Assembly (NCBI GenBank): GCA_016648135.1 | Contig: JADDOH010024943.1 | Coordinates: 1-64,000, forward strand | DNA length: 64,000 nt | Reading direction: 5' to 3' | From: Agrypnia vestita | Taxonomy: Eukaryota; Arthropoda; Insecta; Trichoptera; Phryganeidae | In this document: one piece after another, positions 34,101 to 63,086 of the stretch | Layout: each line of letters starts with the position of its first letter | Numbering within the stretch: position 1 is the first letter of the stretch | Translations under genes and position numbers: made by a program | The notes under the pieces: generated by a model | What the model saw: the letters and a program-made list of their open reading frames with translations, nothing else | Database searches by the model: none | What the model was told of the DNA's origin: nothing

Positions 34101-37100
34101 TTACCTTTCCCAAAACTTAGTTTAACCCTTCTTTATCTCCATCCATCTCCTACTTATCTTGTTAACATGGAACTAGTTTTGTCACCGTAAAATTTTATAC
34201 CGGAAATCTATTTTAATTATTCCACTTACATTGTGCGGTTGGTTGGAAAAAATTTCCAACTGACCATTACAATAATTTACACAAAAAGTGAATAAGTACC
34301 TAAGTAAATAATAACAATAATTCAAAAGCAGTTCACATATTTCTGTCTCAAATGAATTTAAAAAAATCAAAAATATTGTGAATGACAATAAAGTATTGAA
34401 GCTGTTTATGGTCATTAATCTTCAGTATATATTAGGTCCTTACATATGAAATTGACGTTTTACCGTACTGGCAAATTTGATCTCAAATATCTTCTCTTTG
34501 GTTAGGAATTCCAAATCCAAATTTTTACAGCTATTTACTCATGTATTTGTGTTTTGAAAATTATAATTCATTTGTTTTTTCCTCAATTGTTTTTTTCTTT
34601 GCGAGACTCAGTTTACAAAATGAAAAACTTGAAATATCGCGTTATTTACGAGTACGAGTTCCACCGTGGCACCAGTGCTGCAGAAACGGCTCGAAGGATT
34701 AATGATGTGTATCGCGACGGTGCCGCAAAAGAAAACACAGTGCGTTTTTGGTTCTAACGTTTTCGTTCTGGAAATTTCGACCTGCAGAACAAGCCCCGTG
34801 GACGACCGGAGACCAAAGTTGATAATGAAGAATTGAAGGCTATTGTGGAAGCGGAATCCATCGCAAACCACATCCGAGTTAGCTACAGGCTGCGGTGTTA
34901 GTGATAAAACTTTTTTAATCCACTTGAAGCAAATTGGTAAGGTGAAAAAGCTTGAAAGGTGGGGTAACCTCACGAATTGAGTGAAGCAAATCAACAAACG
35001 CGAGTTACTTGTGAGCGTTTGGTGGACTAGTGCTGGTGTCGTTCACTACAGCTTTCTTAAATCTGGCCAGACGATTACGGCAGATGTCTATTGTCAGCAA
35101 CTGCAAACCATGATGGAAAAGCTAGCTGCTAAACAACCGAGGCTGGTAATCGCTCTAGGCCACTGCTGCTTCATGATAACGCTAGACCACACACTGCACA
35201 ACAGACGGCTACCAAATTAGAGGAGCTTCAATTGGAATGTCTAAGACATCCACCGTACTCTCCGGACCTTGCCCCAACAGATTACCATTTTTTTCGAAAT
35301 TTGGATAACTTCTTGCAAAGGAAAAAATTCAACTCCGATGGGGCAGTCCAAACCGCCTTCAAAGATTTTATTGATTCCCTTCCGAATGGTTTTTTTAGTA
35401 AAGGGATCGATGAACTACCTATGAGATGGCAAAAGTGCATAGATAGCAATGGTACATACTTTGATTAAATAAATATATTATAATAAAAAAAAATCGACTT
35501 TATGTTCCTCCCATACTAAACGTCAATTTCATATGTAAGGACCTAATAAATAATGTTTGTCTCTCAGGTGACAGATGCGCCATGAAGATAGAGTTCTGTC
35601 CTATTGGTGGTAATCCGTGCGGCTTGCGTGGTACCTGTGTGGACCACTCCACACATTACACGTGTGACTGCCTCCCCGGCTACTCAGGCGTCAACTGCTC
35701 CGTTAACATAGACGACTGTGCCACACACATGTGTCAGGTATGTTGAAATCATATTTTTATTACGCTAATTAATAATGAATTAACTACCACTGGCAATACT
35801 ATTTATTCAATTTATATTTTTGAATTATTCAGGAAAGATTAGTTTTGCTGGGATTTCAACTCAGGATCCCTACATCCAATTCTTTGTTTAATGTTTCACT
35901 AACATTTTATAGTAATGACTGGTGTTATAATTAAAGCTGTGATTAATTAAAGTATTACAGTAATATCCCCAGTTATGTTGCCCTGATGAACGTAAATTTT
36001 CGGTACATACTTACATTATTTTCATTTCACTTCGTCCCTCATCCGTTCGTTAAACTCTCAAAATAACTTATGTCACATGTTTTTCTATTTGTTTTATAGA
36101 ATGATTATATGTATAATGAAAATAAATTTTAATCACAAATTATTACTTACTATATATGTCTTAATGTTTTCTTAGTAGACACGTAGCAGCTATCAAAGAA
36201 CCTTACAGCAGAAAGAAAAGACCTTGTACCTTTTCTATGAATGTTCATATCCTAACTTGTGTTTTTTCAAATAAGGTTATCTGTATTGTTCCCACTTATA
36301 ACTAAACTTTGAGGTATTACTGACATTATATTTTTTTTATAATCAAATTAAATTGTAAGAACACTTAATAATATTAATGATTTATTTTGTGATCCGATCA
36401 TTTAATTTGTTAATATTCTATTAATGGTTAATAACTCATTTTGTAAAACAAATTAAATTTTATTAAAAAATCTATTCTGCCCCACAATATCAGCAACATT
36501 ATTGTTCCAGAACGGTGGAACGTGTGTGGACGGTGTCAATGATTACACTTGTCTCTGTCCGGATGACCACGCGGGCCGCTACTGCGAGCTCGGCCCCACC
36601 CTTTACCCAGCTGCGTCTCCATGTGCGCACCACGAGTGCGTTCACGGGGTGTGCTACACCCCACAGCACACAGATCTAAACACGGCGCCATCTGACTATC
36701 TGTGCAAGTGTGCGCCTGGATACTCTGGTGAGAGTCTGCCTGTTAAAAACAATCCTTTATTCTTATGCGTGTATCATAACTTGTTTGAGGTATAATTGAA
36801 GGGACCGAAGTCTTCAATATGTAATCATGCGGCAACCATTTAATAAATGGACAAGGTTAACCTTACAATATGACAGGTATAAACGTCAATATTAATTAAA
36901 AATAATTGTAATAACCCTTGTTAAATTAACTTTTGTTGTGAAAAGTTGAGGTGTTAATTATTAGAAAGAACGAAGGGTTAAAGAACACATCAAAGCTTTA
37001 ACTAGCAATGTTGAGTCGGATTTTGCAAAACACTTAATAGAATATGACCATACATTTAAATTTAATACAGGTTTAAAAATTTTGCATATTAGTTATAAGA

Positions 37101-40100: not shown

Positions 40101-41912
40101 ATAAAATTATGAGTTAATTCACGCAGAGATAACTTTGTTTAAGTATTTACACAATTTAAAGATCATCCAATAAGATGTTTGTGATATTTAAGAGATTTCT
40201 TATTGTAGTACACATATATTTAACTGAAGAGCTCACCAAGCACACTCAAGTAATTTGAATGTTGTATTAATTACTTAGACTATTGACTCTTCCTACAGAA
40301 AATTTGAGACTCAATTATATATGTATCATAACTCAATTCAATTCATATTCTTCCAGGAGGCTTGTACGCCTAATCCTTGCAAGCGCGGTGGCAAGTGTGT
40401 TCAGGAGGGAGACTCCAAGAGCGACTACTCGTGCCGCTGTAAAACTGGCACCAGAGGTCTGCACTGTGAGATGCTCGCATCCATCGGTATGTTAGACCCA
40501 TTCATTTGTGCGCTTATGCCATGTTCAGGAATAAATATTCACGAATGTTTCCAAGATATATTTGTACATTTCTCATTTATTATTTGATGGAAAGCTCCAC
40601 TATGCAGGCCAGAGAGATGATAGTACAAAAGTGATGTGTGTAGTATTTGTAACCTTTTTTATCATTTTCAATTACCTTTTAAAACGATGGTTTCATCATA
40701 AGTGTGTTAAAAAACTATAACGCTAATGCTGATTATATTTTCGAAAGGCGTTGGTAATAATACGTCCCACTTCGCTGTACATCACAGCTTCAGATTTAAC
40801 ATTCAATGATGATAATGTTTGTGAACAGGCAAAGCAAATTTTAAATCAGTCTTTGTAATTTAAACAAATTTGCCTATTTTATGTTTATTTAAGACAATGT
40901 TTCCTCTGTATTATTGAGTTTAATTTTTTTAAACGATTTTGCACCCTTTCAAAGGTGGATCGACAATTTTGGGTGGATCCAAGTCCACAGGTTCCAAGAT
41001 GAGGCAACAGGTCAGCGTAGACTCTGCAACAGGTCTCACTCATGGTATGTCATGTACAAAATTACTATGTACTAATAATATTATAGTATTAAATGTGTAT
41101 GTGACATGTTTATATTGAAATAGTACTGCTACAACATCTATTGCTGCAATTATCGAACATCATCAAATATTTCCACAGTAGGAATTTCTCAGCCGGGGCC
41201 GTCCATACCCAGTATGGGCAGCAGCGGGACGTGCCGCAAGGAGGCTCAGCGTGAGCACATTGTGGAGGCAGACTGCAGGTCACGTAGACCGCTGAGGAGT
41301 GCCCGCTGTAAGGGCTCCTGCCCCCGAGGCTGCTGCGCCCCTCGGAACACCAAAAGGAGGAAGGTAAACATCGTTCACAATCTTCCATCTCTTCAAAATT
41401 CGAAGAAATAATGTACATCTCTAATCAATTTCAATTTGACTTTAAATCATCAAAAAAAACATCAAATCTTATCCTTTGCTCTCCGCTGCTATAAACCGAG
41501 TTAACTTTGTCTCTAATGATGTGAATATCTAAGTAAATATACTAAATACAGATTTTATATTTTAGGTTTTCCTCTTAATTACAATGTATAGGTATTTACA
41601 AAACAAAAAAAAATTGAAACTGGCGTTAATTTGTCATTTGCCAATACGTGTTTTTGGGCGAGTGGTGGCTTTAGTGTCGAATTCTTAATGTGTGCGTAAG
41701 ACTAGATTTATCACAAAAGTGCACATAAACTCTTTGCATATTAGGTTGAATTTAGATTCATAATTAAATGATATCCATGTTCTTGTCAATAATACATTTA
41801 TCATTTCCAGGTGAGACTGTTCTGTGCTGACGGATCCCGGCGCACCAAGGAAGTTGAAGTAGTCCGAAAGTGCGCCTGCGGCCGTCGCTGCAACCGACCG
41901 AGCTCAAACTGA
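15996..41912 (+). CDS. slit: slit, secreted axon-guidance ligand (26 exons, 5' end outside window)
   Basis: Slit is a large secreted glycoprotein that binds Robo receptors and heparan sulphate, and repels growing axons and migrating cells at the midline. The exons encode, in order, the end of LRR domain D1, complete D2 (the Robo-binding domain), D3 and D4, six EGF repeats, a laminin-G domain, EGF7 and a C-terminal cystine knot. This is the diagnostic Slit architecture, and stretches such as [45 protein letters not shown] and KKNFTLRVD match fly Slit from memory. All 26 exon junctions are GT-AG and phase-compatible: LRR exons are in phase 2 and LRRCT-LRRNT junctions in phase 1. The 4,087 nt give about 1,361 residues; whole Slits are about 1,500, so only the signal peptide and first LRRs are missing. 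The stop is TGA, and the frame remains open beyond it (see the 41913-45638 entry). Confidence 0.97.
16240..16530. mobile_element. Harbinger/Tourist-like MITE with a second copy inserted inside it
   Basis: The outer copy (16240-16355 plus 16500-16530) is flanked by TAT (16237-16239, 16531-16533). The inner copy 16356-16499 is flanked by TTA (16353-16355, 16500-16502). Both begin GGCCCGGTTGTTTCAAGTT and end with the reverse complement. The 3-bp TWA target duplications fit the PIF/Harbinger group. Confidence 0.8.
16980..17380. promoter_or_regulatory. GC-richer block in slit intron
   Basis: It includes repeated TTCGAATTT/AATTCGGAATT words and gcccgccattggcc. Open frames on both strands appear incidental. 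Possible regulatory block. Confidence 0.25.
19757..19998 (+). CDS. slit: slit exon: last D1 LRR and a degenerate LRRCT cap
   Basis: The exon encodes one LRR ([10 protein letters not shown]..., [10 protein letters not shown]) and the C-terminal cap of D1. It is extremely GC- and alanine-rich compared with every other slit exon. The usual CxC...W cap signature is replaced by C-A-G-A-A-A-A-C, so the second Cys is displaced and the conserved Trp is lost, although four cysteines remain. Acceptor ttccag, donor gtaacg. Both boundary phases fit the neighbours, so it is almost certainly used. Confidence 0.9.
19999..20549 (+). other. slit intron
   Basis: No feature recognised. Confidence 0.85.
20550..20685 (+). 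CDS. slit: slit exon: D2 LRRNT cap
   Basis: It encodes the cysteine-rich N-terminal cap of the second LRR domain ([16 protein letters not shown]), followed by the lead into the first repeat (LPHDTTEL). D2 is the Robo-binding domain. The exon begins in phase 1 and ends in phase 2, as LRRNT exons do throughout this gene. Confidence 0.95.
20889..21032 (+). CDS. slit: slit exon: D2 LRRs 1-2
   Basis: This 144-nt exon encodes two LRRs ([30 protein letters not shown]). They match the start of fly D2 closely. Acceptor tttacag, donor gtaagt, phase 2 at both ends. Confidence 0.96.
21033..21557 (+). other. slit intron
   Basis: Only AT microsatellite stretches, including (ATATT)n directly before the acceptor. 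Confidence 0.85.
21558..21629 (+). CDS. slit: slit exon: D2 LRR 3
   Basis: A 72-nt exon encoding a single LRR ([15 protein letters not shown]). The acceptor follows an (ATATT)n run and gttccag; the donor is gttagt. Phase 2 at both ends, so skipping it would remove one repeat without a frameshift. Confidence 0.96.
21759..21830 (+). CDS. slit: slit exon: D2 LRR 4
   Basis: A 72-nt single-LRR exon ([17 protein letters not shown]), after a short 129-nt intron. This is one of the most conserved D2 repeats and contributes to the Robo-binding concave face. Acceptor ttttcag, donor gtgagt. Confidence 0.96.
21831..22801 (+). other. slit intron
   Basis: AT-rich; no feature recognised. Confidence 0.85.
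22802..22873 (+). CDS. slit: slit exon: D2 LRR 5
   Basis: A 72-nt single-LRR exon ([16 protein letters not shown]) with an NGT glycosylation sequon that is also present in fly Slit. Acceptor ttctag, donor gtaagt, phase 2 at both ends. Confidence 0.96.
22874..23553 (+). other. slit intron with retroelement-like insert
   Basis: A GC-richer insert from about 22995 (CTAGCTGTGCCCGCGCGGC, a retroelement-tail start) to about 23430 carries the heat-shock-element array at 23058-23238. A (TA)n tract follows at 23450-23490. Confidence 0.75.
23058..23238. promoter_or_regulatory. dense array of heat-shock elements (HSF-binding pattern)
   Basis: Alternating GAA and TTC triplets spaced by exactly two bases occur at 23058-23075 (4 units), 23079-23096 (4 units), 23114-23126 (3, last GAC), 23155-23192 (8, one imperfect), 23196-23213 (4, last GAG) and 23221-23238 (4, last GAC). 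This is the nGAAnnTTCn pattern bound by trimeric HSF. Confidence 0.7.
23554..23717 (+). CDS. slit: slit exon: D2 LRRCT cap
   Basis: It encodes the C-terminal cap of D2 with the canonical [16 protein letters not shown] signature and the SPKRVHRRR stretch, which is conserved in fly Slit. The four cap cysteines are present. The exon begins in phase 2 and ends in phase 1 at donor gtttct, a weaker donor. Confidence 0.95.
23969..24113 (+). CDS. slit: slit exon: D3 LRRNT cap
   Basis: It encodes the N-terminal cap of the third LRR domain ([19 protein letters not shown], then VPIHTTQL). Acceptor tttacag, donor gtgagt. The phase 1 to phase 2 pattern is the same as for the other LRRNT exons. Confidence 0.94.
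24894..25415. mobile_element. complete foldback MITE
   Basis: Its ends ACAGGATGTACCAGAGC... and ...GCTCTGGTACACCC are inverted repeats, and the arms are complementary throughout. Close relative of 6704-7219. Confidence 0.85.
25505..25649. mobile_element. Harbinger/Tourist-like MITE
   Basis: A 145-bp palindromic element starting GGCCCGGTTGTTTC, flanked by TAA duplications (25502-25504, 25650-25652). Confidence 0.82.
25760..25978 (+). CDS. slit: slit exon: D3 LRRs
   Basis: This 219-nt exon encodes three LRRs ([42 protein letters not shown]). The LGRLPNLV and [10 protein letters not shown] stretches match fly D3. Acceptor tttccag, donor gtgaga. Confidence 0.95.
25979..27205 (+). other. slit intron with decayed foldback MITE
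   Basis: 26050-26500 has the foldback family core and inverted arms but poor ends. 26500-27200 shows nothing recognisable. Confidence 0.7.
27206..27277 (+). CDS. slit: slit exon: D3 last LRR
   Basis: A 72-nt single-LRR exon ([18 protein letters not shown]). Acceptor tttctag, donor gtaagt, phase 2 at both ends. Confidence 0.95.
27419..27579 (+). CDS. slit: slit exon: D3 LRRCT cap
   Basis: It encodes [17 protein letters not shown] and the remaining cap cysteines. This canonical CxC...W cap contrasts with the unusual D1 cap at 19757-19998. Acceptor ttttcag, donor gtaagt, ending in phase 1. Confidence 0.95.
27580..28263 (+). other. slit intron with dispersed repeat copy 4
   Basis: 28055-28190 is copy 4 of the 'GATCACTTAAGCC' repeat ('aaagtgatcgcttaagccaa'). 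An (ATA)n stretch lies near 27630. Confidence 0.75.
28264..28396 (+). CDS. slit: slit exon: D4 LRRNT cap
   Basis: It encodes the cap of the fourth LRR domain ([27 protein letters not shown]). D4 mediates Slit dimerisation in known family members. Acceptor ttccag, donor gtaaga. Confidence 0.94.
28838..29490. mobile_element. foldback MITE with internal insertion
   Basis: Inverted ends 'atatatacagggttatttgt...' and '...acaaataaccctgtatatat' enclose complementary arms. A ~125-bp insert (about 29087-29215) interrupts the centre. Confidence 0.8.
29888..30300 (+). mobile_element. Penelope-like element 3' remnant with hammerhead core
   Basis: The open stretch contains [32 protein letters not shown] and LSYSPLLN, which resemble the C-terminus of GIY-YIG-containing Penelope-like proteins. 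Downstream is CTGAAGA-stem-GAAAC (30230-30256). Confidence 0.6.
30611..30898 (+). CDS. slit: slit exon: D4 LRRs 1-4
   Basis: This 288-nt exon is exactly four 24-residue repeats ([49 protein letters not shown]). The SYNKL and LSLHGN motifs are diagnostic of Slit D4. It is the only exon in the window with four fused LRR units. Acceptor tttcag, donor gtatgt. Confidence 0.96.
30899..31529 (+). other. slit intron
   Basis: No feature recognised. Confidence 0.85.
31530..31693 (+). CDS. slit: slit exon: D4 LRRCT cap
   Basis: It encodes [19 protein letters not shown] and [13 protein letters not shown], nearly identical to fly Slit. Acceptor tttttcag, donor gtcagg, ending in phase 1 ahead of the EGF region. 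Confidence 0.96.
31694..32940 (+). other. slit intron
   Basis: It contains a direct repeat 'ccacgtcgga--tgtgcgaca' at about 31860-31925 and CpG-containing stretches near 32110-32190 that suggest a decayed insertion of unknown class. Confidence 0.6.
32941..33157 (+). CDS. slit: slit exon: EGF1 and start of EGF2
   Basis: The first EGF has the six-cysteine pattern ([15 protein letters not shown]...[12 protein letters not shown]). The second begins [14 protein letters not shown] and is split by the intron after LLEEGRF. Acceptor gtccag, donor gtaaga. Confidence 0.95.
33247..33386 (+). CDS. slit: slit exon: end of EGF2 and EGF3
   Basis: It completes EGF2 ([12 protein letters not shown]) and encodes most of EGF3 with the calcium-binding start NIDDC and CQNNATC. 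Acceptor tttcag, donor gtttgt. The downstream intron contains the mariner. Confidence 0.95.
34432..35546 (+). mobile_element. full-length inactive mariner transposon
   Basis: A 1,115-bp element with 29-bp perfect terminal inverted repeats (34432-34460, 35518-35546; TTAGGTCCTTACATATG...) and TA target duplications (34430-34431, 35547-35548). The transposase reads [18 protein letters not shown] near its start, and later [16 protein letters not shown] and NFLQRKKF, the mariner [14 protein letters not shown] block. Several stops and frame changes break it, so it is dead, although the terminal repeats are perfect, suggesting a fairly recent insertion. Confidence 0.92.
34618..35466 (+). pseudogene. 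mariner transposase pseudogene
   Basis: It begins [15 protein letters not shown] and ends GTYFD-stop. Internal stops occur after VRFWF, near YRLRC and before VKQINKREL, and a frame change lies near 35160. The catalytic D34D-type region is only partly readable, so no activity is expected. Confidence 0.85.
35568..35737 (+). CDS. slit: slit exon: EGF4 and start of EGF5
   Basis: It encodes the end of EGF3, EGF4 ([18 protein letters not shown]...[12 protein letters not shown]) and the start of EGF5 ([11 protein letters not shown]). The acceptor (tctctcag) lies only 21 bp from the end of a mariner, so the branch point is probably inside or at the edge of that transposon. Ends in phase 0 at gtatgt. 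Confidence 0.95.
35738..36510 (+). other. slit intron
   Basis: AT-rich; no feature recognised. Confidence 0.85.
36511..36727 (+). CDS. slit: slit exon: EGF5, cleavage region and EGF6
   Basis: It encodes [20 protein letters not shown] (EGF5), a short linker ending in YPAASPC, and EGF6 (HHECVHGVC...CKCAPGYSG). By position, the linker before SPC corresponds to where Slit proteins are cleaved into N- and C-terminal fragments. No basic residue stands directly before SPC here. Acceptor gttccag, donor gtgaga. Confidence 0.95.
36728..37502 (+). other. slit intron with Penelope-like remnant
   Basis: 36950-37400 contains decayed coding ('gaatatgaccatacattta', a form of EYDHTF) and a hammerhead core at 37356-37381. 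Confidence 0.6.
36950..37425 (+). mobile_element. Penelope-like element 3' remnant with hammerhead core
   Basis: Broken frames read like the Penelope-like C-terminus (EYDHTFKFN..., ..KFVHNPLLN). CTGATGA at 37356-37362, a 5-bp stem and GAAAC at 37378-37382 follow, as in the copy at 29888-30300. Confidence 0.5.
37503..37737 (+). CDS. slit: slit exon: laminin-G domain, part 1
   Basis: It encodes the end of EGF6 and the first part of the laminin-G (ALPS) domain. The stretches [38 protein letters not shown] and NHPVSTMY are almost identical to fly Slit. Acceptor ttcacag, donor gtaagc. Confidence 0.97.
37738..38341 (+). other. slit intron
   Basis: 37811-37905 is a fragment resembling the Harbinger-like MITE ('ggttgtttcaactt', 'aaagcatagat'). 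Nothing else. Confidence 0.65.
38342..38565 (+). CDS. slit: slit exon: laminin-G domain, part 2
   Basis: It continues the laminin-G domain ([37 protein letters not shown]). Acceptor ccttcag, donor gtagcc, beginning in phase 2 and ending in phase 1. Confidence 0.97.
38566..39269 (+). other. slit intron
   Basis: No feature recognised. Confidence 0.85.
39270..39418 (+). CDS. slit: slit exon: laminin-G end and acidic linker
   Basis: It encodes [29 protein letters not shown] and an acidic linker. This corresponds to the end of the laminin-G domain and the linker before EGF7. Acceptor ttcacag, donor gtaggg, ending in phase 0. Confidence 0.96.
39419..40356 (+). other. slit intron
   Basis: No feature recognised. 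Confidence 0.85.
40357..40486 (+). CDS. slit: slit exon: EGF7
   Basis: It encodes the seventh EGF repeat ([20 protein letters not shown]...[12 protein letters not shown]). Acceptor cttccag, donor gtatgt, phase 0 to phase 1. Confidence 0.95.
40487..40954 (+). other. slit intron
   Basis: No feature recognised. Confidence 0.8.
40955..41044 (+). CDS. slit: slit exon: short Gly/Ser-rich linker, possibly optional
   Basis: This 90-nt segment is open in the expected frame ([20 protein letters not shown]...) and is flanked by tttcaaag and gtatgt. Both ends are phase 1. Inclusion or skipping would keep the cystine-knot frame, because the EGF7 exon can also join 41179 directly in frame. The position corresponds to the poorly conserved linker between EGF7 and the knot. 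Its acceptor has a modest pyrimidine tract. Confidence 0.6.
41179..41363 (+). CDS. slit: slit exon: C-terminal cystine knot, part 1
   Basis: It encodes the first cysteines of the knot ([34 protein letters not shown]) and a basic NTKRRK end. Acceptor ttccacag, donor gtaaac, ending in phase 0. Confidence 0.95.
41364..41810 (+). other. last slit coding-region intron
   Basis: No feature recognised. It ends ttccag directly followed by GTGAGA. Confidence 0.85.
41811..41912 (+). CDS. slit: slit terminal coding exon: end of cystine knot and TGA stop
   Basis: It encodes [20 protein letters not shown] and the final knot cysteines CACGRRC, then six further residues NRPSSN before TGA. Fly Slit ends one residue after the equivalent Cys. 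The exon starts with GTGAGA directly after ttccag, so its first bases also resemble a splice donor. The stop context is AAC-TGA-CTG, a UGA-C stop. The frame stays open downstream. Confidence 0.95.
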   Translation: MRLFCADGSRRTKEVEVVRKCACGRRCNRPSSN

Positions 41913-41946
41913 CTGCCCGGCGCGACCGACCGCCCCGCCGACCGTA
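41910..41946 (+). promoter_or_regulatory. slit stop codon with proximal readthrough element
   Basis: TGA 41910-41912 is followed by CTGCC and then, from 41918, a GC-rich segment with repeated GACCG. Bases 41918-41933 and 41937-41946 are complementary, in order, to 46192-46207 and 46178-46187 (16 bp with one G-U, and 10 bp). The five-base spacer resembles the spacing of known stimulatory RNA structures 3' of leaky stops. The function is inferred; the complementarity is read directly. Confidence 0.7.
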
Positions 41947-44900
41947 ATGCCGACCGCAACCACCACCCACTCAGCCGTGGGAAGGGCAAATCTAGCCGTA
42001 GAATAAGTTATAGCCGTAAGAATATAAATCGCCGCCTCAAAAACAATGAAGAAATCCCTAGAAATATGGAGTTTAAAAATGTTTTTGACACTTTTAATCG
42101 AGAAGATGGTCATGAAGACCATCTCGTTGCTATTAAAAGCAATTTTGACGAGTCAAATCAGGAGTATTTGAGTGGAAATGAAAAACAAAGAAGTCTTACA
42201 GATGTTACAAATACTGAAGATTTCAATGATGACGTCAAAACTGACAAAAATCACATTCAAAACCATTTTCGACATCATTCTGACAAACTGGTAGACAGTT
42301 TGCATCACCATCTTGATGATGAAGATGATTTTGACAATGAAGGCGGCAATTTTAGACATACCCACCAACACCTTAGCCATAGTATAAGTTCTAGTTATGT
42401 AAGCGACCGTTTGACAAGTGACAGTGGCGATCCCAGCATTGGAACGGATCACCCCGGTCACAATAATGACGGTTTTCGATTTATTGATACTTTAAGTAGT
42501 CGTAATGAACATTTAAAAGATGAAATTTATCACGACTTCGACAGCAGTGTCGATAAAGATTTTACAAGTGAAAATCATAAAGCTAGCGGTTTCCACCAAA
42601 GAGATATTGTAAAAAATAGTGGAGATCATTCTGTCATTGATGAAATTGTTGCTGATGAGCGTTCATCATTAGAAATAATTAAAAATGACGATGAATTAAG
42701 CTTTGTTGATGAACATCTCAATGACAGGGATGACCGAGTTAGCATTAGCGATTTTAGCTTTAATAATACGAGTCAAATCGATAATATTTTCGATGATGCT
42801 GATGAATCCGATGAAACATTGATAATTGTACCCAGTATCCTACACATCGATGAAGATACTAAAATGACAAACAATGAAGACAAAGATATAAAGACATTTG
42901 ACAATGATGATTTCTTACATTTTAATTTTGATTTTGAAGTTAAAGACTTTGGTGAAACAAGCACTGAATCATTTGAATCGGATCAAAAAATGGTAACTTC
43001 CACAGAAATTACACCAAATTCAGACAAAGATGACAATTTTGATATTGTAGAAGATGTGGCACAAATCAACAGTGACGATCTTAATGAACAGAATACAGAA
43101 TATTCCAAAGAGATTTTAAATGATGGTGCATTGATCCTCGATGATGAAGGACTCATGACTACCGAGAGTAATGAATATAATGGATCAGATAGCGAAATTG
43201 GTTTATTGGAACAACCTTTAAATTTAATTTTGGACTCAAGAAAACCTCTGCAAAATGATACAACAGAATCAATAACGGAAGAATTGAGCAAAAACATTGT
43301 ACAAAATTATACAAATTTGGAAAATTATTCAACTAATTACCAGAGTACAGAAGATAATACAGATGATACTGCCGAATTATTTTATGCATTGGAATATGGA
43401 GTTATGAACCAAATCTATGCTTTGGTTAAGAGAGACGTTGAAAGTAATTTACCAACCATGGATGGTTTTGGAAAAACCACTCTGAATTTTACAAAAAGCG
43501 ACTTTGAAAGACTTGTGTCTGAAATCCACAATGATTCATCTTTGAAAGTTGAGTTCAAAGAGTACTTAAGAGCCCTTGTGAAGATTGAAACTGAACACCT
43601 TATCAAAGACAGTCAAGAATTATTGGAGCTGAATGAAACACTAAAAATTGGAGAACAACAGAATGTCGCAAAAATTGATGGAGCTCATAATGTTAAACAT
43701 GAGGAAGTAAAACACTTCCATGTGAAGAAAAAAGAACTGATGGTAAATGATTTGAGAAAAGAGTTTAATGGAGTCTATAGAAAAATCTTAAACCTTCCAA
43801 ATTTAAGTAAAATTCCTTCAATTGAATCTAAGCTTAATAATGATGATCATATTTTGAACGAAGATATTGACAGAGAAGTGAATGATCAAGAAAGTGTTGG
43901 ATCTATTCAAATCGCTGTAGCTTTGCCCAGCAGGCAAGATGCTACAGATGACTATTATGATGCTTTGGACAAAGATGACAAAACCGGAGATGAAGAAATC
44001 AAGAGAAGAAATAGAGTGAGCAGTGAAACTGAGAAAAATGCTCCTGATAAAGCATTCAAAACTTTTGATACGCCTAGTGGAAGGGTAAAAATCCTATACC
44101 AGGTGAATGAAAAGGAACACTCAAAGAAAAGTAAAGATATAAATACTCCAGAGCAGAAAGCCACGGATATAAATACTGGATCTATTCAGAATACCGGAAA
44201 GTTTTTGCAGGAATCAGAAAAGCACAAGGTCTCAGCCGTCATGACTTCGGATGGAAAGATTGGCATTCTGGTCAAAGCAAAGGGTAAAACAGATGACCAG
44301 ATTGTTAATCTGGATCAATATGATGACAGAAGTTACCCTAACCCAAAATTGGTACCCACAAAAATACTAGACAGTGAATCACCACTAAAAACAACTGTTT
44401 TAAGACCAGTGTCTGGGACATTAGATGTTTTTGATGCTGGTAGGACTGTGCTAAAACCTGTTGGAACCAATGTGTGGACTGCTCACAGGAAAGAAAGTGG
44501 TGATGCCAATAAAGCGAAGGATGACAATTTAGGCGACGTGCCGTACGATGATGATTATTATGATGAAGATGAATTTGAACGAAAGGGAGACTCTACAACA
44601 ACTCGAAAATCAGTGACTGGTTTAAAAAAAGTGCTGTGGGATATTAAAAGTGCCGAAGAGAATGATATTACTGAAAGGGTAACGATTAACACGGATGTAA
44701 AAGATATCGGAAGTCATCCAATAAGTGAAACTGATAAAATTATTGAGCCACGTGAAAAAAATGTTATCAGGACTTTTGATGAAGATTTCTTAAAGGGTCT
44801 TCAGAAGAATGTGTCCGAAGAAAAGTGGGATAGGAAACCGGATTACCCTGGTGGAATAAGAAATCCAAATTCTATAGATTACAGAAAAAATCATGAAAAA

Positions 44901-45638
44901 TCAGTATACCTTAACATGCTGGATATACTTGGGCCCGACTCGAGAGATGTGATTCAACTTTTGAAAGATGTGAAGCACATTAACAATGATAGAAGTCCGG
45001 GCAGCAAAAAACAACTGCAAAATTCTAATGAAAATGATAGAAGGACTAGTTCTGTAGAAGTGAGCATTCCTATTTTAAACAGAACTCCTTTAGAAAATGA
45101 TAGAAATATACACGGATACAATGATAAAGATGGAAGTAAAATTTTTGACGAAGGGGAATTAGAAAACCCGGGTAAGGAACATCAAAGAAACAGAGTCGAC
45201 TTCCATCTGAATCGAAATTTAAATTCTGAACTTGAAGGCGACAGAGACTTTGGTGGTAACACACACCGACCAAGAAAGCTCGAAGATATCTGGTCTGACA
45301 CTGAAGAAGAATTAGCCGAGGACTCGATGGTTAGAATCATTCCAGTACACACAGGACACTCAATATTTCAACGGATTAATGCGAAAAAGGGTAGAAATGA
45401 GGCTAGTGATCCGATTATCGGAACAATTCCCTCGTTCGGAGATTTGGAATTCACAACAGAAGGCTTTAACGAAGAAAGAATCCTGACCGCAAATAATTCC
45501 TCCCAGAGAGGATTTGGAGATACAAAGTTACGGTTTATCTTGTGTTTCTGCACCATTTTTGGCTTTGGATTTTACACTCTCTTATCATGGATTAGATTGC
45601 AATCAAGATTTTTTAATTTAGTTCAAATGCATTGGTGA
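41913..45638 (+). CDS. 1,241-codon in-frame extension of slit: putative readthrough, transmembrane C-terminus
   Basis: Immediately after the slit TGA the same frame is open for 51 codons, reaches an ATG at 42066 and continues for 1,190 more codons to TGA 45636-45638. The first 51 residues are basic (RGKGKSSRRIS, INRRLKNN). The next ~1,100 are strongly acidic, rich in Asp, Asn, Ser and Glu, with His clusters (RHH, HHH). They contain no cysteine until the C-terminal membrane segment. At least ten N-X-S/T sequons occur (NNTS, NDTT, NYTN, NYST, NFTK, NDSS, NETL, NVSE, NRTP, NNSS). A 20-residue hydrophobic stretch (residues ~1157-1176 counted from the ATG) is followed by a 14-residue tail. No signal peptide follows the ATG, so a separately translated product would not enter the secretory pathway from its N-terminus, whereas a Slit fusion would. 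I recognise no domain. Alternatives are a separate single-exon gene or a splice that bypasses the TGA. Confidence 0.8.
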   Translation: MPGATDRPADRNADRNHHPLSRGKGKSSRRISYSRKNINRRLKNNEEIPRNMEFKNVFDTFNREDGHEDHLVAIKSNFDESNQEYLSGNEKQRSLTDVTNTEDFNDDVKTDKNHIQNHFRHHSDKLVDSLHHHLDDEDDFDNEGGNFRHTHQHLSHSISSSYVSDRLTSDSGDPSIGTDHPGHNNDGFRFIDTLSSRNEHLKDEIYHDFDSSVDKDFTSENHKASGFHQRDIVKNSGDHSVIDEIVADERSSLEIIKNDDELSFVDEHLNDRDDRVSISDFSFNNTSQIDNIFDDADESDETLIIVPSILHIDEDTKMTNNEDKDIKTFDNDDFLHFNFDFEVKDFGETSTESFESDQKMVTSTEITPNSDKDDNFDIVEDVAQINSDDLNEQNTEYSKEILNDGALILDDEGLMTTESNEYNGSDSEIGLLEQPLNLILDSRKPLQNDTTESITEELSKNIVQNYTNLENYSTNYQSTEDNTDDTAELFYALEYGVMNQIYALVKRDVESNLPTMDGFGKTTLNFTKSDFERLVSEIHNDSSLKVEFKEYLRALVKIETEHLIKDSQELLELNETLKIGEQQNVAKIDGAHNVKHEEVKHFHVKKKELMVNDLRKEFNGVYRKILNLPNLSKIPSIESKLNNDDHILNEDIDREVNDQESVGSIQIAVALPSRQDATDDYYDALDKDDKTGDEEIKRRNRVSSETEKNAPDKAFKTFDTPSGRVKILYQVNEKEHSKKSKDINTPEQKATDINTGSIQNTGKFLQESEKHKVSAVMTSDGKIGILVKAKGKTDDQIVNLDQYDDRSYPNPKLVPTKILDSESPLKTTVLRPVSGTLDVFDAGRTVLKPVGTNVWTAHRKESGDANKAKDDNLGDVPYDDDYYDEDEFERKGDSTTTRKSVTGLKKVLWDIKSAEENDITERVTINTDVKDIGSHPISETDKIIEPREKNVIRTFDEDFLKGLQKNVSEEKWDRKPDYPGGIRNPNSIDYRKNHEKSVYLNMLDILGPDSRDVIQLLKDVKHINNDRSPGSKKQLQNSNENDRRTSSVEVSIPILNRTPLENDRNIHGYNDKDGSKIFDEGELENPGKEHQRNRVDFHLNRNLNSELEGDRDFGGNTHRPRKLEDIWSDTEEELAEDSMVRIIPVHTGHSIFQRINAKKGRNEASDPIIGTIPSFGDLEFTTEGFNEERILTANNSSQRGFGDTKLRFILCFCTIFGFGFYTLLSWIRLQSRFFNLVQMHW
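45534..45593 (+). other. predicted transmembrane segment of the slit extension
   Basis: These codons encode a 20-residue hydrophobic run rich in Phe, Ile and Leu with two Cys (FILCFCTIFGF...), preceded by KLR and followed by RLQSRFF and the C-terminus. With the Slit signal peptide it would give a type I topology with a 14-residue cytoplasmic tail. The orientation is uncertain because basic residues flank both sides. Confidence 0.75.
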
Positions 45639-46260
45639 TTACATTATAAAGAATTAAAGCATTTAGTTTCTAAATAAATTTAAATTAAAATTTTCAACCG
45701 TCAAAAAATATGTTGGTATTAGATTAATGAAGGCATTTTTTATTTCATTACTCAAATGGGAAATGCATAAAGATGAAAAGGTTGCCAATTTTTTAAATTT
45801 TTCCAGTGATTATTGTCATGTATTCAATGTTTATTTTGGACCAAAAGAATGTATTTTTAACAGTGCCCCACTGAAGATTTTAAATAATTTACTTTCTGTT
45901 TTAATTACTTTTTATTCAGTTTATTTGATTTTTTTTAGCTATGTTGCCTATGAAAAGAATGTACATAATAAAACTGAATGATACTTGAAATGTCAAATCA
46001 ATTATGACAAGTTACGTCAAATTTGACGCATGTACGACTGCTTTTACATTTTCATCGAAACGAATTGACTTTAAGTGAATCTGTATAAAATATTTAATAT
46101 ATTATATTATATTATACATACTCTGTATTAGGCCTAGATTTTAGATTAAGTAAACTAAGAAATATTGAATATAAAAATACGGTCGGCAGATGCGGTCGGT
46201 CGCGCTGCTATGTTTTATACAACTACAAAAAAAACTAAGGAATAAAATATAAATTATATA
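45639..46260 (+). other. presumed 3' UTR of slit/extension mRNA with three poly(A) signals
   Basis: AT-rich non-coding DNA with AATAAA at 45673-45678, 45967-45972 and 46241-46246. Only the last lies beyond the distal pairing element, so the choice of 3' end would decide whether the element is in the mRNA. No transcript data are available here. Confidence 0.55.
46178..46207 (+). promoter_or_regulatory. distal pairing element in the presumed slit 3' UTR
   Basis: This GC-rich island stands alone in very AT-rich DNA, about 540 nt after the extension stop. It contains two copies of CGGTCGG and is the reverse complement of the segment just after the slit stop. It lies 34 nt before an AATAAA. Confidence 0.7.
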
Positions 46261-48460
46261 AATTTAAATTAAACTATTTAATATTGACGCGTTTTTTGAG
46301 CCACCGATCCCGAAACTCATATTCGTTTTAAATATTCTAGAGAATGACGCAGTACATTTGTATAGTTTGGTACTGGATAGAATACCAACTTCTGAACAGA
46401 ATTAATATCTGTATCCAATTTTATGTCGAATTTATGATATTGTCCAGTAAATCAATGTTAAAATATTTCAAAGAGTTGTCAAATAGAGAGAAAAAATGGT
46501 AACTTAAAAGAAAACATATTTTTAACGGTGGCTTATAAAGTTAGCAATGTTTTAAATGTAATATATATTTTTTATGTGTTTTATATAAACCTAGAACGCT
46601 TGTTAAGAGTATTTATGTTGAAATATTTGATGTTTTTAATTTATGACAAATGAATATCGGTGTGAATGTCAAAAATTATTAGGTACTTTAAATGTTGCTT
46701 TGGAAGATGGCATTATTTTTTATTTAACCTAGGATGAAGGAAATGATCAGCGATGAAAACCGGCCAGGTGAACCTGTAAGACTCGAAAAATAACAAAATC
46801 TGTCACTAGTTGAAGCAATTTTTTAAATGATATACATTTGCAGAACTGGCAATCTACCTTTGTTCCGAAAGGATGTTCCGAAATAGGCAGAATCAAAAGG
46901 TGTAGAAAATTCCACATCGTCAATATTAAAAATTGAATAGAAATTATGTCACATTCATTTGACAATTTTGTCAGTATTGACCGTGTACGAGGGCCTACTA
47001 GAATCACTTTGGCTGTATTTGATTAATTTACATGACATTGCAAACATTTGCTCTAATATTTTCAGTATTATTTTTCTATGACTAATTGTAAACGTAAAAA
47101 ATATATGTATGCTTTTTAAATTATTTCTGCATGAGTTTATGAGAAAATATCTTAGTGTTCATTAATTAAGGATGTAATATTGATAACCTGACAACATTCT
47201 AACCTTATTTATTTTAAACCTTCAAACATGTTTAGTTATTTTCGCATTATTACCTACATATTTATTTTTCTTTTAAGAAGATTGGATAAAATACCTAGCT
47301 ATAAAATTTACTATTTCTTAGCGGAAATATTTGTTGAACTTATCAGATTGCTGTCAGATTATCAATCTTTCATTTGCTATTTACGTTTTAATTTAAGTTT
47401 AATTTATTCACCAAGATTCGGGTATTCCACATTATTTTAACTTTATTTAATCTATTAACGAATGTATAGATCTTAAAAACCTGGAGACGACTCCACTCGG
47501 AAAACACTGATGTAATATATAATATACCTATTGAATGAACGATATATCTGTAATCAGATGTTACTTTCAACATCTACAAACATATTAAATATATATCCAA
47601 ATTAAAAAACACATTGTTTCTTATATTGAAAGCTGTATTTCCTATAAAATTTTCCTACAAAACTGTGTTAGGAGTTATTTTCATTGATTACCTACATAAT
47701 ATTATGTTATTGCATGTAATTCCTCTATATATTTCTTATAGTATCAGAATATCCACAGAAATATATATATATATATATATATATTAAAAATTAATAAAAA
47801 TATATCTCACAAAGATATTTACGATTTTTTTTTGTAAAATGTTGATCGTTTTGCACATTATACTGAAATTTGACACTTGTTAATTAATTTTTTTGTTAGA
47901 AACATATCCAACTTGAGTGTATATTTTCAGTGATTTCGGAGTGGAGCTCTGCAGAGAGTATTCAAAAGTGTACCTAGGTATTTTTTACATTTTTAGCAAT
48001 GTTATGAATAATAAAACAAATAATATATTTATAAATAAGCATTTTTGAAACGTGCATTGTACGGATGTGTATTATTATTCGGAGAATAAAAATTACTCAA
48101 ACTAATAAATTTGTTTTAATGAGTTCCAACACCAGTCTCCCGCTGTCAGATAATTATAACCACCCTGCCAAGGAATGCAAGCAAGACATGAAAATATTAG
48201 TTTACAAATATCTTAAAATCATTATTGATACTGACTTGTTACAAAGTCATCAACAGGAATAATTGTTTTTTAAATTACATAATACTAAGTAGATACTAAT
48301 ATTTATAATGTAAGAATAATAAAAAAAATATATTAAAAAAACAAATGAATGCATTTGATTATAATACAAGAAGTCAGCATTAGTGATGGTATTTTAACCG
48401 GTGACATACTAACCATTATCTGATATCTATATTTTAGTAACTGATTATTCAATGATTGAT
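46261..48460. other. intergenic AT-rich DNA
   Basis: No gene recognised; a (TA)n tract lies at 47760-47785. The longest open stretches lack any protein signature. Confidence 0.75.

Positions 48461-56370: not shown

Positions 56371-63086
<6,716 letters not shown>

Follow-up and report, generated by a model that had tools for sequence, protein, structure and literature searches.

Complementarity between the slit stop codon region and the distal 3' untranslated region of the caddisfly Agrypnia vestita as a possible stimulus of stop codon readthrough

Can a helix that spans kilobases of a cellular mRNA influence how often the ribosome passes a stop codon? This question is raised by the slit gene of the caddisfly Agrypnia vestita, which lies on the + strand of the 64,000-nucleotide (nt) stretch analysed here (contig JADDOH010024943.1 of assembly GCA_016648135.1, positions 1 to 64,000; hereafter, the window). 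The bases that follow the slit stop codon are complementary to a segment of the distal 3' untranslated region (UTR), a complementarity that is unique in the genome and predicted to be stable, and the stop is followed by an in-frame open reading frame (ORF) with relatives among predicted proteins. We propose, with a probability of about 0.38, that the helix between these two segments raises readthrough of the UGA-C stop into the extension. Below, the evidence for this reading is presented together with the alternatives that have to be weighed against it.

The slit gene was recognized by tblastn, in which the Slit protein of Arctopsyche grandis (P0004) aligned exon by exon over 15997-41897 and was closer than a slit-containing protein of Plutella in most exons common to both. 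The match of P0004 over the cystine-knot exon covered 41181-41375 (Table 1 gives the exon as delimited here). Since both the end of this exon (41363) and the start of the terminal exon (41811) are in phase 0, the Slit frame continues to the TGA at 41910-41912. The context of this stop is a leaky one, UGA with C at +4; readthrough stops typically have a C as the base that follows TGA, according to a study on insect readthrough genes (PMC5100048). As an observation on the exon structure, the terminal exon begins with CAG/GTGAGA (41809-41816, + strand), in which an acceptor runs straight into a sequence resembling a donor, the arrangement also seen at recursive splice sites, and the sequence at 35567 (CTCAG/GTGACA) resembles it.

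The arms of the helix were found exactly where the first-pass annotation of this DNA had placed them, with 41918-41933 facing 46192-46207 (16 bp, one G-U) and 41937-41946 facing 46178-46187 (10 bp). The longer helix holds the 14 consecutive Watson-Crick pairs claimed (41920-41933 with 46192-46205), followed by G41919-U46206 and C41918-G46207. The sequence likewise bears out the colinear order of the two helices over a 3x4 internal loop at a distance of about 4.2 kb, and the helix does start five bases after the TGA, at 41918. The minimum free energy (MFE) fold adds one more pair, C41936-G46189, within the internal loop.

The duplex of the two arms has a calculated energy of -56.4 kcal/mol, and the best rival 60-nt window on the + strand between 41000 and 64000 and clear of the distal arm reached -42.8 kcal/mol (at 57570). 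When the arms were shuffled with their dinucleotides preserved, 0 of 1000 versions of the distal arm (best, -44.9 kcal/mol) and 0 of 1000 versions of the proximal arm (best, -46.5 kcal/mol) were as low as observed, and shuffling the entire 3' UTR 300 times gave no value below -34.3 kcal/mol. The helix is also present in the MFE fold of 41811-46275 (4465 nt), a fold that presumes an RNA end near 46275 and takes the mRNA from the terminal exon onward, and the UGA is unpaired there. Barring the distal arm from pairing costs this fold 40.3 kcal/mol. Local folds around the proximal arm are weak, with energies between -11.1 and -26.0 kcal/mol over lengths of 71-101 nt. A switch between the helix and nearby GACCG words, which had also been suggested, is energetically weak, as these words reach only -28.5 kcal/mol (41880-41912) and -25.9 kcal/mol (41947-41975), compared with -55.6 kcal/mol for the arm itself. 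Because of these weak energies, both local hairpins and the GACCG words were rejected as the main competitor of the helix. We also noted a 12-nt near-tandem repeat, GCCGACCGTAAT/GCCGACCGCAAC, at 41937-41960 (+) in the proximal region, and ACCGACCG upstream of the stop at 41894-41901.

How unusual the complementarity is was examined in the genome sequence (1.32 Gb, 19947 contigs). The 14-mer core GCGCGACCGACCGC occurs six times (three times for a reversed-pattern control); two of these occurrences are the arms, and two of the four other sites are copies of one sequence. The composite motif GACCGACCGC-N2..6-GCCGACCGTA occurs exactly twice, at the two arms, with no occurrence of its control. On the basis of the shuffles and both genome counts, a chance match of the arms was rejected. 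Terminal inverted repeats of a transposon were also rejected, given that the composite motif is restricted to the two arms and the extension is single copy in the genome, as judged both by its protein and by its first 300 nt. When 46130-46270 was compared with 226 kb of other genome sequence and with the window, the flanks gave only short matches (at most 35 nt), and the arm matched nothing but its proximal counterpart. No selenocysteine insertion sequence (SECIS) or other Rfam element was found: the Rfam search of 41000-47500 returned four sub-threshold hits, none of them SECIS. The description of the distal arm as a GC-rich island in AT-rich DNA is correct: 21 of its 30 bases are G or C (counted by reading), and no other 30-mer in 45639-47500 exceeds 0.57. 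The proximal arm sits in a generally GC-rich coding end. Its codon choice differs from that of the remainder of the extension, which we do not count as support for pairing because GC-richness extends over the whole slit exon end.

The second component of the proposal is the extension itself. Its 1241 codons encode an acidic product (250 D+E vs 158 K+R) with no Pfam match, in which Kyte-Doolittle 19-mers above 1.6 begin only at residues 1206-1209. Three predicted proteins (P0001-P0003) are related to it, with 56-57% identity over the alignment and 85-86% among themselves, and a wider profile-based protein search returned the same three relatives and no further ones. From about codon 480 onward the sequence is strongly conserved, weaker stretches apart, and in the first 240 codons it is weakly conserved (20-27%). 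The extension is open, in frame and conserved at the protein level, as is expected of programmed readthrough genes, and it has the appearance of genuine coding sequence that continues the Slit frame. By the same sequence evidence, readthrough to a membrane-anchored Slit is plausible, and the extension may rank among the larger readthrough extensions. When the Slit/extension junction was used as a query, four proteins were returned, none of which spans both parts, and a stop-free fusion was therefore seen in no species. Among the titles listed in a literature search there was nothing on slit readthrough, and the word slit does not occur in the main text, the part covered here, of the study of insect readthrough genes (PMC5100048).

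The start of the extension requires separate consideration, because it bears on whether the stop codon is passed at all. The first ATG is codon 52, and shuffled sequences equalled the similarity score of codons 1-51 in 90/2000 cases for P0001, 1614/2000 for P0002 and 1334/2000 for P0003. The similarity of codons 1-51 is non-significant for two of the three relatives and is not counted as support for readthrough. Instead, the extension might be reached by splicing round the TGA, or might form a separate frame that is translated from a start within it; in either case, the complementarity would be unrelated to termination. We consider this very improbable. Splicing could draw on the donor-like start of the terminal exon and on one in-frame YAG at 42161, but this is the only YAG among seven in-frame AGs in 41913-42660, and its tract is as weak as that of the weakest acceptor compared; splicing round the slit stop therefore appears unlikely but possible. 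An own start would suit the ATG at codon 52 and the weak similarity before it. However, the protein from codon 52 would be acidic, with a membrane-span at its C-terminus and no evident signal peptide (by reading), and the predicted ORF of P0003 extends back about as far as the position of the slit stop here.

Readthrough stimulated by the helix is a fair hypothesis, because the extension looks coding in the Slit frame and the helix sits at the UGA. In the proposed mechanism, the 26-bp helix would close a 4.2-kb loop in the slit mRNA from the stop region to the distal 3' UTR and would act as both a barrier and a tether at the terminating ribosome. About a dozen bases downstream of the A site lie within the ribosome. 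When the UGA occupies the A site, this would leave the outer pairs melted, and the inner, very stable pairs (about 18) would meet the ribosome at the mRNA entrance. Readthrough of UGA-C would be raised, the 1241-codon extension would be added, and Slit would be tethered to the membrane by its C-terminus. Here we infer that the slit mRNA extends to 46207 and that, within cells, the helix is formed and influences readthrough. The idea of stimulation, which came from the first-pass annotation, stands in so far as the helix is placed to act on UGA termination and the extension is coding-like; it is weakened by the relatives, as the same arm is not encoded in either of the two that could be tested.

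This last result is the first of several that weigh against helix-stimulated readthrough. Scans of viral and genome contig collections gave no DNA locus of the relatives, and conservation was assessed from their predicted proteins alone, permitting any synonymous codon and pairing against the distal arm described here. P0002 was outside this test, as its predicted protein begins too late. The first residues of P0001 allow a pairing run of at most 7 bp. Those of P0003 permit 13 bp in a register shifted by five bases (offset 0 vs -5), and 3/117 control pieces were equal or better. In a 35-residue version, 13-bp runs were obtained for both proteins, far from the orthologous place and within the control range. 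P0001 and P0003, the two testable members of the three relatives that keep the extension, thus do not encode this proximal arm in its present register, and therefore readthrough there, if any, does not need this helix. Judging from these sequences, the helix is unlikely to be an old and indispensable component of extension expression; it may be lineage-specific, and the species of the relatives may have another helix.

The simplest and most likely origin of the arms, as judged by their composition, is a single copying event in which about 30 nt of the GC-rich end of the slit exon were placed, inverted, in the AT-rich 3' UTR. Such a one-off templated insertion could be functionless, with the helix as a by-product, and we regard this as a serious possibility, albeit not the probable outcome. 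A single copying event accounts for the identity at both helices together, and a GC island in AT-rich DNA, as opposed to an arm in a GC-rich coding end, marks the distal arm as the copy. The failure of P0001 and P0003 to encode the arm also fits a neutral copy. Inverted repeats are, moreover, common in this genome: a 200-kb background (20 stretches from five contigs, a non-random sample in which four contigs were chosen for holding the 14-mer and the fifth is the window's own) contained 339 clusters of at least 12 bp at 0.3-6 kb spacing, 84 of them of at least 14 bp. However, only 4 of the 339 clusters had a GC content of at least 0.6, and the longest of these four was 19 bp. A neutral copy also leaves unexplained why one arm lies five bases past a stop codon and the other 33 nt ahead of an AATAAA; this spacing alone is weak evidence because AATAAA occurs 147 times in 64 kb. 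Finally, the arms differ by one pairing-compatible change (the G-U) and by one block, which gives rise to the internal loop, with no broken pair in either helix. These differences would match what selection for pairing leaves, but they are few, and we treat them as weak, suggestive evidence.

The poly(A) signals add a further argument against stimulated readthrough. The mRNA must include the distal arm for the helix to exist, and two AATAAA words (45673 and 45967) precede it, so that alternative poly(A) use, if any, decides whether there is a helix. In the boldest reading, which we consider unlikely, the kilobase-range helix of this developmental mRNA would set the frequency of Slit extension, and polyadenylation before or after 46178, by taking away or providing the distal arm, would act as a switch between secreted and tethered Slit.

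The position of the distal arm also suggests another function. As a natural 3' UTR foldback, the helix would bring the poly(A) tail, with the protein bound to it, to the slit stop, allowing proper termination and, despite a 3' UTR of about 4.3 kb, escape from nonsense-mediated decay (NMD). Readthrough would then be lowered, which is the opposite of stimulation, and a foldback near the poly(A) tail is indeed expected by analogy to favour termination instead, a further point against our proposal. Engineered poly(A) foldback constructs suppress NMD, and the slit geometry (some 26 bp that start 5 nt past the stop and end 33 nt ahead of an AATAAA) matches that of such published constructs (PMC2689704). 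In contrast to the slit helix, which is natural and nearer the stop, the constructs were artificial and expressed in human cells, with mRNA stability as the measured property; according to the figure legends, they pair from 28-42 nt or more after the stop, whereas pairing here begins at 5 nt, partly inside the ribosome (PMC2689704). This function would also depend on the candidate AATAAA at 46241. Taken together, we consider a foldback somewhat unlikely.

The closest precedent for stimulation is found in the tombusvirus carnation Italian ringspot virus, whose readthrough requires base pairing with a distant 3' element (PMC3234231, which is also the source of the other statements on this virus). 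In both the viral pair of proximal and distal readthrough elements (PRTE-DRTE) and slit, a post-stop segment pairs near the RNA 3' end, kilobases away, and in slit this complementarity exceeds chance. Unlike slit, the viral pairing involves 6 nt located in a bulge within a local stem-loop and lies within a folded 3' replication region. The slit pairing is a plain 26-bp duplex in a cellular mRNA without a strong local stem-loop scaffold; no local stem-loop presents the proximal element, and the proximal arm itself forms the helix. The viral interaction was proven by compensatory mutants and by selective 2'-hydroxyl acylation analysed by primer extension (SHAPE), whereas the slit helix is a prediction from sequence. 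The viral pairing was inactive in a dual-luciferase mRNA, which makes the precedent context-dependent and counts against its transfer to slit. Among insects, flies and mosquitoes show an enrichment of structures downstream of readthrough stops, and genes such as Drosophila hdc share with slit a UGA followed by C, a conserved in-frame extension and a post-stop structure; these structures were sought within 100 nt after the stop, and the slit partner is 4.2 kb away (PMC5100048).

Table 1 Features of the slit locus and its 3' region in the window
Feature	Positions	Strand	Basis and remarks
slit exon, start of C-terminal cystine knot	41181..41363	+	Sequence; exact start not settled; ends ...TKRRK, donor AAG/GTAAAC, phase 0
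Last Slit-coding part, terminal exon	41811..41912	+	Sequence and tblastn match to P0004 at 41808-41897; phase 0
slit stop codon TGA, then C (TGA-CTG)	41910..41912	+	Sequence
1241-codon extension ORF in Slit frame	41913..45638	+	Next stop 45636-45638; acidic; single copy; relatives P0001-P0003
Proximal arm of predicted helix (41918-41933 and 41937-41946)	41918..41946	+	Complementarity, duplex energy, MFE fold
Hydrophobic, membrane-span-like segment near extension C-terminus	45528..45593	+	Kyte-Doolittle; segment limits by reading
AATAAA, candidate proximal poly(A) signal	45673..45678	+	If used, distal arm excluded from mRNA
AATAAA, second candidate poly(A) signal	45967..45972	+	If used, distal arm excluded from mRNA
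Distal arm, GC island pairing with 41918-41946	46178..46207	+	Complementarity, energy, MFE fold, composition
AATAAA, third candidate poly(A) signal	46241..46246	+	33 nt after distal arm; the only one of the three that keeps it

Other features were also observed in the window. An open frame at 35133-35465 (+), within a slit intron, resembles a fragment of a mariner transposase, and another at 62409-62867 (-) looks like an exon of the dipeptidyl-peptidase type (S9). Long inverted repeats at 28841-28909/29415-29483 and 48464-48496/49787-49819 are like the ends of small transposable elements, as is the inverted repeat 6705-6734/7189-7218, which recurs at 24899-24924/25387-25412.

Among the papers listed in a literature search by title or abstract opening, mostly of papers open without subscription, no natural cellular case of long-range readthrough control or of foldback was found. 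To the best of our knowledge, RNA viruses provide the only examples in which readthrough is controlled over a long range, and most instances of poly(A) foldback are engineered constructs. If our reading is true, slit, a major guidance gene, would provide a natural case, and the choice of the mRNA 3' end would be linked to the form of the protein. Even with a neutral helix, a conserved frame of 1241 codons that follows the slit stop and ends in a membrane-span is notable in its own right. A tethered Slit, if made, would alter the view of how this secreted guidance cue acts.
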